DNA from: Rudanella paleaurantiibacter
GTDB lineage: Bacteria; Bacteroidota; Bacteroidia; Cytophagales; Spirosomataceae
Length of the DNA: 64,000 bases
Reading direction: 5' to 3'
Assembly: GCF_009184635.1 (NCBI RefSeq)
Contig: NZ_WELI01000001.1
Location: 186,001 to 250,000 of the forward strand
The notes beneath the pieces were generated by a model. The model was given only the letters and a program-made list of their open reading frames with translations, ran no database searches and had not been told where the DNA came from. This document shows positions 3,801 to 55,360 of this stretch, piece after piece. Made by a program: the position numbers and the translations under genes. How positions within the stretch are numbered: position 1 is the stretch's first letter; every line of letters begins with the position of its first letter.

Positions 3801-4668
3801 GGTTACGCTTATCGATTTCTTTAAAACCACGCATCCGCAGGTGTTGCTTGTCGATGATAACACCACCAACCGGAAGGTGGCCAGTGAGATTTTGCGGAAG
3901 GCGGGGTGCCTGGTTACGACGGCTGCCAGCGGGCCCGAGGCCATTGACATTGTGAAGGGAAGGCGAACGCAACCGGGAGAAGGAGCCGACGGGTTGTCAG
4001 ATACCGCTGCGTTGCCGTTACCGCCTTTCGATGTCATTTTTATGGACATCCAGATGCCCGATATGGACGGCGTAGAAACGACTCGCCACCTGCACGAGCT
4101 GTTTGGCAACGACCTGCCGCCTATTGTGGCCATGACGGCCTACTCCATGCGCGAAGACCGGGAGCGGTTCCTCAGTCAGGGGCTCGACGACTACATTGCC
4201 AAACCGATTCGGGCGCAGAGCCTGATTGCGAAGGTGAAAGAGCTGGTGGATGCCGCCAGTACCAAGCGCGAGACTCAGCAGCTGCAACTCCGGCAACAGC
4301 AGATTGCCCAGCAAACGGCCCAGATACAGGCCCCGCTGCCGCCCGTGATTGATGAGGAGATTGTGTCGCAGCTGCGCGATCTGGGTGGTCAGGAACTGGT
4401 GGATGAGATTATGGGTGAGTTTGTGACCGAGGCTACCGAGTTGGTCAACGGGGCCAACGATGCCTTTGCGCTCGGCGATATTCCGACGGTGAAGAGTCAC
4501 CTGCACACGCTCAAAGGCAGTGCGGGCACTATTGGCGTGTCGCGAGTGGCTCACATTGCCCGCGAGGCCGAGGGTAAACTCAAACTAAGCGACACCAGCC
4601 ACCTGGCCGAAGAACTTCAGGCGCTGACCAGAGCATTTGAGGAGTTTTTGCTGACGCGTAAGGGGTGA
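886..4668 (+). CDS. Hybrid sensor histidine kinase (PAS-PAS-GAF-PAS-PAS-HisKA-HATPase-REC-HPt)
   Basis: A 1260-aa multidomain sensor kinase with no transmembrane segment, so it should be cytoplasmic. In order: PAS domains at about 50-170 and 170-295, GAF at about 298-453, PAS at about 465-590 and 600-715, HisKA with phospho-acceptor His740 (FLANMSHEIRTPMNG), HATPase_c with N box (SNLTSNAIKF, near 850) and G2 box (GGTGLGLAIS, near 919), receiver with DD pair near 988 and phospho-Asp1054 (IFMDIQMPDMDG), and C-terminal HPt with His1207 (HTLKGSAG). It thus carries a full His-Asp-His phosphorelay and probably hands phosphate to a separate regulator; the stand-alone receiver at 8635 is one candidate (inference). 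The HPt end is duplicated at 6590-6940. Confidence 0.95.
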   Translation: MDTKRYTGVCYTAAIQSGIKQPTAFVVNTPSSTLPTQTALATQPATFDVRQTVDQLNLIGLTVDKDGTLSYANPYTYRVTAWQPDDIIGRNFFDVFVPPADRAKLEGEFEEALRRGGFVEQREIDLLARSGAVRNVLLNSFIVNHRAGELASFTIIGEDITTKKRVASALSFSNAQLQDLVDNTSDLIQLVTLDGKFMFVNRAWREVLGFGSDEVASLTLHDVLHPDYADVTMQRLGRIQDGEKLPYFETVFRSKAGKTIFVSGSVNCRYDNGRPTAFRCILHDTTSKIRAEKAQKLYYSIANWTINTRDLDDLYGKIHEELGNIIDARNFFIALYDGSKRYLYFPYYVDEYFGGHLRFTKRRLGNGLTEYAIRANKALFLYEKDIRQMADQHQLDLYGQLQPKVMLTAPLRVGEQVTGIIGVKSYTDERTYGPRDLELLEFISGQVALAIARKQDEAALNKQTARLNAIVESSTYLIWSVNKSLQLTSFNKNYTSLIERNVGERPTMLGSAPNLGWRMIGTENRRALEEKYRQAFRGVPQTFEMRIGGEGTGTAETWLDFQLNPILLSGGVIEEVSGIARDITNRKRAEIATQQSEEKFRGIFENLQDIYCRVDRNGHITMISPSVYKRMGYTPEEVLGQDVTQYFVDKSIIHKAMLRLVRNRSLRNFEVTLRRKDGTERQFMFNMLLLKDDAGHHSVVAVLARDITELKRQAAELVKAKEEAERSLKVKERFLANMSHEIRTPMNGVIGMIDLLNDTPLDVEQRDYVRTIKRSSETLLNILNDILDLSKIEAGKMVLHEAPIALREVFDKLIALFGQQAASKNNQLTYRLADDLPTFVIADQTRLLQILSNLTSNAIKFTENGEVTVTASLVGKKGKFNRIRVDVRDSGIGISPENIKLLFNSFSQVDESSRKSFGGTGLGLAISKELALLMKGEVGVESTVGKGSTFWFVIELKETAISPTQQTTENTEVTLIDFFKTTHPQVLLVDDNTTNRKVASEILRKAGCLVTTAASGPEAIDIVKGRRTQPGEGADGLSDTAALPLPPFDVIFMDIQMPDMDGVETTRHLHELFGNDLPPIVAMTAYSMREDRERFLSQGLDDYIAKPIRAQSLIAKVKELVDAASTKRETQQLQLRQQQIAQQTAQIQAPLPPVIDEEIVSQLRDLGGQELVDEIMGEFVTEATELVNGANDAFALGDIPTVKSHLHTLKGSAGTIGVSRVAHIAREAEGKLKLSDTSHLAEELQALTRAFEEFLLTRKG

Positions 4669-4670
4669 AA

Positions 4671-4740
4671 CATAATGCACAATGTGTAATGTATAATGCG
4701 TAAAAAACCAGACGCTGTACACGGCATATTGTGCGTTACT
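4671..4740. repeat. Heptad-armed inverted repeat 3' of the kinase gene
   Basis: Directly after the kinase stop codon lies a run of 7-bp units of the form YRYAATG (CATAATG, CACAATG, TGTAATG, TATAATG). After a spacer a short inverted arm (ATTGTGCGTTAC) follows. The same block is present in the duplicated copy at about 6943-7012 and a longer relative sits at 34606-34705. It probably folds into a hairpin in the transcript; no function is assigned. Confidence 0.55.
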
Positions 4741-4751
4741 CTTTTGTAAGG

Positions 4752-6369: not shown

Positions 6370-6591
6370 GCTCCTTTTTATTTGTATAATACTGTTGCTC
6401 ATAGTGTTCAGGGCTTTTGTAGTCCAGCGACGACCGGGCTGCCTACGTACCTAATTGTAGTAACCTTCAATGTAGGCTAACACTTCGGTTCGGACATCTT
6501 CAGCACTCAAAAATACTCCGTCTTTGAGCAATTCAGCTTTTAGACGGCCCCATAGTGACTCAGCGTAAGCATTGTCATATGGATCGTCTGC
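6370..6591 (-). pseudogene. IS3-family transposase (OrfB) C-terminal remnant
   Basis: Read on the minus strand from 6591 the frame gives DPYDNAYAESLWGRLKAELL, then LSAEDVRTEVLAYIEGYYN, the typical end of the IS3-family DDE integrase core (rve) including the catalytic-region glutamate in the AES motif. It then meets an in-frame TAG. After a frame change the family tail SSLDYKSPEHYEQQY reappears, so the copy carries a frameshift. All upstream coding sequence is missing: the fragment is cut at 6590/6591 exactly where the duplicated HPt sequence starts. This is a dead remnant, not an active insertion sequence; no convincing terminal inverted repeat was found. Confidence 0.85.
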
Positions 6592-6940
6592 CCAGATACA
6601 GGCCCCGCTGCCGCCCGTGATGAATGAGGAGATTGTGTCGCAGTTGCGCGATCTGGGTGGTCAGGAACTGGTGGATGAGATTATGGGCGAGTTTGTGACC
6701 GAGGCTACTGAGCTGGTCAACGGGGCCAACGATGCCTTTGCACTCGGCGATATTCCCACGGTGAAGAGTCACCTGCACACGCTCAAAGGCAGCGCGGGTA
6801 CCATTGGCGTGTCGCGGGTGGCTCACATTGCCCGCGAGGCCGAGGGTAAGCTCAAACTAAGCGACACCAGCCACTTAGCCGAAGAACTTCAGGCGCTGAC
6901 CAGAGCATTTGAGGAGTTTTTGCTGACGCGTAAGGGGTGA
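6590..6940 (+). pseudogene. Duplicated HPt-domain 3' end of the hybrid kinase
   Basis: This segment matches the last about 117 codons of the kinase gene (4318-4668) and the match continues into the 3' flank as far as about 7017. It keeps the HPt phospho-acceptor motif HTLKGSAG. I count 15 base differences across the pair, all in the first about 255 bp; 13 are silent and only two residues change (Ile-Asp to Met-Asn near the start). The last about 119 bp, including non-coding flank, is identical. There is no proper start: an open frame can begin at a TTG at 6572 inside the transposase remnant, giving a 122-aa solo HPt. Most likely a fragment, although the silent pattern of change shows both versions evolved under protein-level constraint. 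Confidence 0.8.
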
Positions 6941-7014
6941 AACATAATGCACAATGTGTAATGTATAATGCGTAAAAAACCAGACGCTGTACACGGCATT
7001 GCATTACTCCTTTG

Positions 7015-7276
7015 TACTGGACATTAGACATTAGATGTATTGGGTGATAAGGTTGTTCTCGCAAGGAACCACTGCCAGCAACATCCGTTGTGGGGTCTTC
7101 GACTACTGGCAGGGTTTGGGTTGCTCACTCCCTGCCAGTGGTCGAAGACCCCACAACGGATGTTGCTGGCAGTGGTTGTACAGGACAGCCAAAAGGAGAA
7201 CAATCTAATCACTCAATACAGTTGGACGTTAGACCTCTCTACAGAATGGTAGTAAGTCTAACGTCTAATGTCCAGT
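7015..7276. repeat. Three-tier nested inverted repeat
   Basis: Three inverted repeats are nested. The outer arms 7015-7035 and 7256-7276 match at 20 of 21 bases (unit CTGGACATTAGA). The middle arms 7036-7060 and 7196-7220 match at 22 of 25. The inner arms 7067-7114 and 7130-7177 form a 48-bp stem with one mismatch and a 15-nt loop. The outer unit recurs at about 55107-55197. The arrangement suggests one palindromic element inserted into another, but no clean target duplication is seen here. Confidence 0.75.
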
Positions 7277-7321
7277 ATTGAACACTATTCATTATCTATT
7301 TGACTTTAATTCAGTAAGGTT

Positions 7322-7846
7322 ATGACCAAAACCCACATTAATCCGATGCCGGGGTTCTTCGACCGGTACATTAATCTGGCACCTGATGGGGAGCTGATCG
7401 ATGCGTTGGCGGCTGGTGCCCGGCTCGAAACGCTATTGCCTGCCCAAACGCTCGAAAGCCTGGGCGATTACCGGTACGCACCCGGCAAATGGACGGTCAA
7501 AGATATTGTTCAGCACCTGATTGATACCGAGAGGATTATGGCGTACCGAGCCTTGCGGTTTGCCCGCAACGATCAAACCCGGTTGCCGGGCTTTGAAGAA
7601 GACGATTTTGCGCAGTACGCCCAGGCGTCGCGCCGGTCGCTGACCGATCTGTACGACGAATACGCGCTGCAACGGCAGTCGACACGGGCATTATTTCGGA
7701 GTTTCGATGCCGAGATGTTACAGCGTACGGGCATCTGTTTCAACCAGACTATCTCGGTTCTGGCGTTGGGGTTTGTGCTGGTTGGCCACCCAATACACCA
7801 CGCCCGGGTGGTTCAGGAGCGGTATGTGCCGGGTGTACAAAAATAG
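7322..7846 (+). CDS. DinB-superfamily protein (DinB_2)
   Basis: A 174-aa four-helix-bundle protein of the DinB/YfiT superfamily. Visible hallmarks are 'YRYAPGKWTVKDIVQHLIDT' (first metal-ligand His in helix 2, with the family 'gkWsv.eil.HL.D.E' pattern) and the C-terminal 'LVGHPIHHARVVQERY' carrying the second pair of histidines. These three His would bind a divalent metal (Ni, Zn or Mn in characterised members). Some family members are thiol-dependent S-transferases, but the substrate here is unknown. The gene stands alone and ends in a strong hairpin shared with the convergent gene at 7903. Confidence 0.85.
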   Translation: MTKTHINPMPGFFDRYINLAPDGELIDALAAGARLETLLPAQTLESLGDYRYAPGKWTVKDIVQHLIDTERIMAYRALRFARNDQTRLPGFEEDDFAQYAQASRRSLTDLYDEYALQRQSTRALFRSFDAEMLQRTGICFNQTISVLALGFVLVGHPIHHARVVQERYVPGVQK

Positions 7847-55040: not shown

Positions 55041-55360
55041 TCAGACCAACAGACCAACCGCTGGAGTAGAGGCCCCAATCACCAGACTGGCCTCCAGATT
55101 TACAGTACTGGACATTCGGACTTCAGACACTGGACATTAGACTTATTACCTTTATGTATGGAGGTCTAACGTCTAATTTCCAACATCTAATGTCCAGGAC
55201 TGGCCTCCAGGTTCACCTGCGTGATGCGGTTGGTGGTGATGGTGTCGGGCAGAAGCTTGGTGGCTACCTGACTTATTTCCTCTACTGGTTGACGGATGTA
55301 GGTAGGGGGCGCGTAAAACAACTGGCAGGCTTTGGTTTCGTCGAAGCTTGTACGTTTGGT
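55041..55360 (-). pseudogene. Gene remnant interrupted by the CTGGACATTAGA repeat
   Basis: On the minus strand, codons read 'FDETKACQLFYAPPTYIRQP', 'VEEISQVATKLLPDTITTNR', then ITQVNLEAS. The frame is broken by a repeat at 55098-55197 and resumes as VNLEASLVIGASTPAVGLLV to a TGA at 55041. A TAA just upstream and the lack of a start show that the 5' part is lost. Removing the repeat plus one copy of the flanking direct repeat restores one continuous frame. No family is recognised. The rest of this 590-bp gap is AT-rich at 55380-55460 and otherwise featureless. Confidence 0.4.
55098..55197. repeat. CTGGACATTAGA repeat flanked by a 13-bp direct repeat
   Basis: About 100 bp with inverted arms built around CTGGACATTAGA (left about 55107-55142; right about 55163-55197). 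The exact 13-mer GACTGGCCTCCAG flanks it at 55085-55097 and 55198-55210, and similarity extends a further 6-7 bp (ATTTAC versus GTTCAC). The same arm unit forms the outer tier of the nested palindrome at 7015-7276. Confidence 0.6.

Follow-up and report, generated by a model that had tools for sequence, protein, structure and literature searches.

A MITE within a MITE: a concentric palindrome in Rudanella paleaurantiibacter with ends of IS4 and, probably, IS481 type

The window analysed here, a stretch of 64,000 nucleotides from Rudanella paleaurantiibacter, contains a duplicated HPt-encoding segment, the second copy of which (6590-7016, plus strand; Pfam Hpt 9.4e-15) is 95% identical to the first (4318-4748). 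A DinB-family gene (DinB_2 2.8e-13) starts at 7322. On the minus strand, a 69-aa open frame at 6451-6589 (DDPYDNAYAESLWGRLKAELL...) adjoins the left edge of copy 2 and, by eye, looks like a candidate IS3-type integrase C-terminus. At the right edge of the duplication stands a concentric palindrome, in which an earlier note had distinguished three tiers. All three are real: inner arms of 48 nt at 7067-7114 (plus) and 7130-7177 (minus), mismatched at one position and separated by a spacer of 15 nt (7115-7129); middle arms at 7036-7060 (plus) and 7196-7220 (minus), paired at 22/25 positions; and outer arms at 7015-7035 and 7257-7277, paired at 20/21. Folded as single-stranded DNA, the 273 bases of 7010-7282 reach -100.4 kcal/mol, compared with a shuffle mean of -31.5 (z -19.5), and 0/200 shuffles fold equally well, so that the stability of the fold is far above chance level.

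The tier count needs one correction, as the middle and inner tiers form a single element, termed B here, inside an outer element, A. A spans 7010-7282 and is split by B; it is delimited by its ends, CTTTGTACTGG at 7010-7020 and CCAGTATTGAA at 7272-7282, by end matches across the genome, and by the 9-bp duplications of its family. B (7036-7220, plus strand; ends TGTATTGGGTGAT and ATCACTCAATACA) lies in the left arm of A, 26 bp from the left end of A and not in the centre as had been supposed. It is flanked by the hexamers ATTAGA (7030-7035) and GTTGGA (7221-7226), presumed to be a 6-bp target duplication with two changes (4/6). The window also contains a second, B-free A element (55101-55204), whose flanking 9-mers CTCCAGATT and CTCCAGGTT match at 8/9. 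The word CTGGACATTAGA, previously taken as the outer unit, occurs exactly four times in the window, twice within the nest at 7010-7282 and again at 55130 (plus) and 55186 (minus), these last two and a 2-mismatch copy at 55108 all being parts of the second A element; the reported recurrence of the unit thus holds, at these positions and not at 55098.

Element A is widely dispersed. With 7015-7277 as the query, the genome that contains the window (34 contigs, 6.72 Mb in total) gives 90 matches, of which many cover just the right-hand part; CTGGACATTAGA occurs 162 times at no more than one mismatch (15 for the reversed control), and the A end TTCAGTACTGGACATT 131 times at no more than two (1 for the reversed-pattern control). 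From the fetched loci, 48 complete two-ended elements were recovered, mostly 76-112 bp long, with clusters at 90, 97, and 104 bp and one at 76. The 7-bp steps between these lengths come from the make-up of the arms, a series of heptamer-like repeats, e.g. TAGACRT/TGGACAT. In the register YTCAGTACTGG...CCAGTACTGAR, the flanking 9-mers match at 7/9 or better in 29 of the 48 copies (9 at 9/9, 11 at 8/9, and 9 at 7/9), compared with an average of 0.88 copies, and never more than 5, across 1000 shuffles, a test that is slightly optimistic, as the register was picked from the same copies after trying offsets. A scan of lengths 5-13 with the same ends, allowing one mismatch (two at lengths 10-13), finds 20 copies at length 9, no other length giving more than one. 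Duplications below 7/9 are found in 19/48 copies, and the window copy has no clear one (best 8-mer 6/8). A is short and non-coding, with terminal inverted repeats, many dispersed copies, and a fixed-length target duplication, as expected of a MITE.

Many A copies (e.g. L013, L016, L107, and L113) adjoin or lie within AT-rich strings, ATTCATTATACATT and TGTATAATGAATAAT among them, which perhaps reflect a target preference or another repeat. Other elements have also entered A. Two A copies (L094 at C12:763550 and L037 at C12:274421) each contain, at an identical TAAGTCTAA, a third element named D, 171 bp long with ends GTGAGTTAAGGGTAA...CATAATTCACG, the duplication around it having been read by eye, and at C23:12533 (L098) a 128-bp A-ended element with a different interior lies inside an A copy, flanked by the 9-bp duplication TATATAGGA.

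Element B, with TGTATTG...CAATACA ends, measures 185 bp in the window and 155 bp in four other copies. The own genome (G000) contains ten two-ended copies, five inside A (the window, C16:5745, C26:214474, C12:640762, and C28:646650) and five outside it (C12:103461, C26 near 457 kb and near 15 kb, C32 near 57 kb, and C1 near 32 kb). This inventory required two recognisable ends and leaves out one-ended, decayed, or core-only loci (L009, L010, L069, L075, L127, L130, L131, L133, L142, L149, and L150-L154). Target duplication was assessed in 15 elements, namely these ten, one from G001, and four from genus g4. Their flanks are 83% identical at length 6 and 20-29% identical at lengths 3-5 and 7-10. 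The hexamers match at 5 or 6 of 6 positions in 10/15 elements (shuffle mean 2.5, maximum 8), the total hexamer identity is reached by 0/5000 shuffles, and the G001 copy scores 3/6; the test is slightly optimistic, as the ends of L024 and L120 (CGTATTG and TCTATTG) were set by eye with the flanks visible. Duplicated hexamers include ATTAGA, GTTAGA, TCTAAC (the complement of GTTAGA), ATTAGC, ATTAGT, and AATATA. B thus combines terminal inverted repeats with a fixed-length target duplication in several copies, again as in a MITE. One 91-bp B in A (L017, C28:646650-646740) has lost nearly all of the central palindrome and kept both ends and a perfect 6-bp duplication.

The ends of A recur on IS4-type transposons of a sister genus. 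A DDE transposase (L216, G003) carries AATACTACTGGACA at both sides, its relative L239 (G067) carries AGTACTGGACATTGA at both sides, and six copies of L216 relatives in G125 end in TCAGTGCTGGACATTGA. Perfect 9-bp duplications in exactly the register of A flank five of the six G125 copies, L241 being the one without; L235 and L243, from other genomes, show no perfect 9-bp duplication. The L216-type transposases match Pfam DDE_Tnp_1, and their best NCBIfam matches are IS4 families, below the curated cut-offs. Relatives of L216 occur in 13/150 genomes of the bacterial family at E 1e-30. In a scan of 32 rve or DDE_Tnp_1 transposase loci of the genus for the ends of A, B, and D, A-end matches at 2 mismatches were found at two (similar ends at both sides of L216 and one end at L230), and the remaining loci gave 3-mismatch matches or none. 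Searching PDB chains by phmmer with the L239 transposase gave 0 matches at E 0.01. Judged by the ends and duplication length that it has in common with these transposons (L239 and the G125 copies), A is a MITE of IS4 type. Like IS4-family MITEs, it is short and non-coding, with terminal inverted repeats common to an IS4-type transposon (CTCAGTACTGGACATT in L239; CTCAGTGCTGGACATT in G125), and its 9-bp duplications agree with those of the transposon in register. It differs from them in being apparently orphaned here, in the heptamer-like tandem arrays of both arms, and in serving as a target for other elements. A search for parent transposons in the own genome gave one rve and one DDE_Tnp_1 match. 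As no L216-related IS4 transposase passed E 1e-30 there, A is probably orphaned and now immobile in this genome.

For B, the end TGTATTGRGTGATWAGR at no more than one mismatch is found in 49/222 family genomes, mostly as single matches that are possible by chance; 17 stretches surrounding such ends were read. At L288 (G205) and L292 (G203) a transposase C-terminus adjoins the B end, and its frame stops inside the terminal repeat. The best NCBIfam match of these pieces is IS481 (9.3e-19 and 1.2e-20), with IS3 second and weaker, and Pfam assigns them to rve_3. At L297 and L298 (G205), the end TGTATTGCGTGATTAG is followed by a start-proximal helix-turn-helix frame (Pfam HTH_28 4e-06 for L297), which may be the other side of an IS481-type element carrying B ends. 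B ends thus border IS481-type transposase fragments in a sister genus, and an IS481-type parent is likely on this basis; a C-terminal query of 36 g4 genomes gave four matches in two genomes, all fragments, with no intact IS481-type element bearing B ends. In published accounts, IS481 relatives duplicate a hexamer, NCTAGN, and their transposase stop lies in the duplicated target (PMC2516522, PMC6794481). B resembles them in its TGT...ACA ends and its 6-bp duplication, the hexamer being of the same size with a central TA. However, its targets are RTTAGA-like and do not match the CTAG-centred target of published IS481 elements, and the fragments at B ends stop inside the terminal repeat rather than in the duplicated target. 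An exact contig scan for a degenerate B end, from which near-source records may have been left out, gave two matches, in Flavobacteriales and Methylovulum assemblies, which are taken as chance.

A and B are two independent families, with their own ends, their own duplications, and separate occurrence. The outer unit alone is present at dozens of places lacking the inner one, the combined middle and inner unit lies outside A in half of its two-ended copies, and the constant association of all tiers that the earlier note had named as contrary evidence is not the case in this genome. Nesting is confirmed, because B occurs both in and outside A and A occurs mostly without B, and the locus is one MITE inside another, an arrangement of a known kind; the earlier proposal that a CTGGACATTAGA element had received an insertion of another whose ends read TGTATTG... 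is borne out. Very probably, then, the locus records two nested MITE families, A with IS4-type ends holding B with IS481-type ends. In the proposed course of events, an A of about 76-112 bp with IS4-type ends (YTCAGTACTGGACATT) would have duplicated 9 bp on insertion. A B of about 90-220 bp with IS481-type ends (TGTATTGRGTGAT), duplicating 6 bp and favouring RTTAGA-like targets, would later have entered it, giving the concentric palindrome. We infer that A was present before B at the window locus and that transposases of the IS4 and IS481 families moved A and B, respectively, in trans.

The heptamer-like arms of A are rich in the B target, so that B inserts into A often and harmlessly. RTTAGA sites on both strands of the window number 30. 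The two A copies (B included), which together cover < 400 bp, hold 10 of them, ORFs hold 13, and the other 7 lie outside both. Because the RTTAGA-like target of B stands in arrays in A, A acts as a landing pad; provided that insertions into genes do not persist, A holds about half of the sites tolerated in the window, which is approximately the share of B copies found there (5/10). The bias of B towards A would thus reflect target density together with the loss of insertions in genes, and a special attraction of B to A is unnecessary. A striking concentric palindrome thereby becomes a readable history of two MITE families with identifiable parent types, one being the target of the other, and the nest preserves, in clean natural form, the record of one insertion within another. 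Modest interest attaches to the parentage, now resolved, to the logic of the landing pad, and to the way the arms and loop of B behave.

Comparable systems have been described. QMITE2 of Coxiella is likewise a MITE that, through a target motif it carries, has become a hot spot for insertion of a different mobile element, but there an intact IS1111 enters the MITE at a REP, whereas in A a second MITE enters via a repeated hexamer (PMC5896051). The BrickBuilt MITE of Porphyromonas gingivalis also contains tandem repeats, with units of 23 nt as opposed to ~7 nt in A, and nesting is unmentioned in its abstract (PMC4596501). The term 'nested' has 0 occurrences in the accessible text of a review (PMC10969869). 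No title or abstract opening in the searched literature describes A or B, and, as subscription journals are mostly absent from it, this is no proof of priority.

Among 11 cores of the inner B palindrome with two alignable arms, arms of the same copy differ by 0.82 mismatches in 23 and arms of different copies by 1.53, a difference equalled in 4/10000 permutations; four of the 15 extracted cores (C12_103, C2_116, G001, and C26_491) had a broken arm or one unalignable without gaps and do not enter this comparison, and C33_139 yielded no core. In the window copy both arms carry the 15-nt segment CAACATCCGTTGTGG (7079-7093, and as its complement at 7151-7165), whereas at C23:312673 only one arm has it. 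One or two arm differences persist in 7/11 copies, counter to perfect correction. The spacer sequence is inverted in other copies: of six that could be oriented by their flanks, three read one way (window, C16, G001) and three the opposite way (C26:214474, C12:640762, and C12:103461, the last being a weaker match with 4 differences). The arm and loop data fit exchange or template switching between the arms. More tentatively, and somewhat against the balance of likelihood, the B palindrome may be a self-correcting invertible cassette, with arms kept matched and the loop flipped by such events, while the A arrays offer a safe landing pad for B and others. The set of B copies is suited to studies of long bacterial palindromes, namely of how matching between the arms is maintained, how loops become inverted, and how cores are lost.

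Other readings of the architecture concern the number of units. Were A, B, and the inner stem a single three-tier element, with the smaller forms as deletion products, the presence of B in A at 5/10 two-ended sites of the own genome would be natural. However, B lies in the left arm of A in the window and at C16, C26:214474, and C28:646650 but in the right arm at C12:640762, and four of the five B-in-A copies have the hexamer duplicated at 5 or 6/6. Moreover, B outside A has duplications of its own, e.g. ATTAGC and AATATA, and A without B is several times more common. Different B positions and separate duplications, which a single element should not show, are thus exactly what is found, and this reading is scarcely credible. 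The inner 48-bp palindrome might instead be a third unit, separately mobile or REP-like, that inserted in B to give a true three-level nest. Some core hairpins (L010, L133, L149, and others) do stand where B ends are not recognisable, and G002 contains many short core matches lacking B ends at the threshold used. Yet nearly all well-matched cores lie within intact or decayed B ends, no duplication is seen around the core, and none of 18 Y1 transposase loci of the genus carries it. A third unit is therefore unlikely; where only a core is seen, it may belong to a B copy whose ends have decayed.

The neighbouring genes raise two further possibilities. The match between the HPt copies stops inside the left end of A, so the palindrome does stand at the right boundary of the duplication, as had been pointed out. 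On the far side of A, from 7314, the match to copy 1 is taken up again for 16 nt (15/16; E 0.17 for that match alone). Copy 1 reads CTTTTGTAAGG, and copy 2 reads CTTTGTA...GTAAGG around ~297 extra bases, copy 1 being without A+B and 31 further bases that lie right of A in copy 2. This is consistent with deletion of A+B between GTA triplets, and a later gain in copy 2 fits equally; the 31 extra bases and the poor duplication of the window A favour neither. That the palindrome caused the HPt duplication as a recombination hot spot, a suggestion of the earlier note, agrees with the exact stop at the left end of A and the continuation of copy 1 with sequence from the right of A. It is not established, as post-duplication gain of A in copy 2 or its loss from copy 1 explains the right edge equally well, and the left edge adjoins the transposase-like remnant (6451-6589, minus strand) and not A, which makes a causal role improbable. 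The nest might have been co-opted as a hairpin acting in cis (as a transcript end, an attenuator, or a processing site) between the HPt copy and the DinB-family gene, and its very stable fold, 39 bp upstream of the latter, would suit this, but 0 terminator-like sites were found, Rfam gives only sub-threshold miRNA models, and the other copies sit in unrelated places, so that such a function is very unlikely.

REP and REPIN palindromes are associated with RAYT (Y1) transposases and, like A and B, are short and intergenic. A and B differ from them in making target duplications. A REP/RAYT origin of the inner palindrome was rejected, as the core, A, and B motifs occur at 0/18 Y1 loci of the genus at up to 3 mismatches. 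Four Y1 (RAYT-like) genes (L185, L189, L188, and L192) are flanked by short-palindrome arrays of their own, e.g. GTCCCGTAGGGAC and ACCCCGTAGGGG, which are unrelated to A and B.
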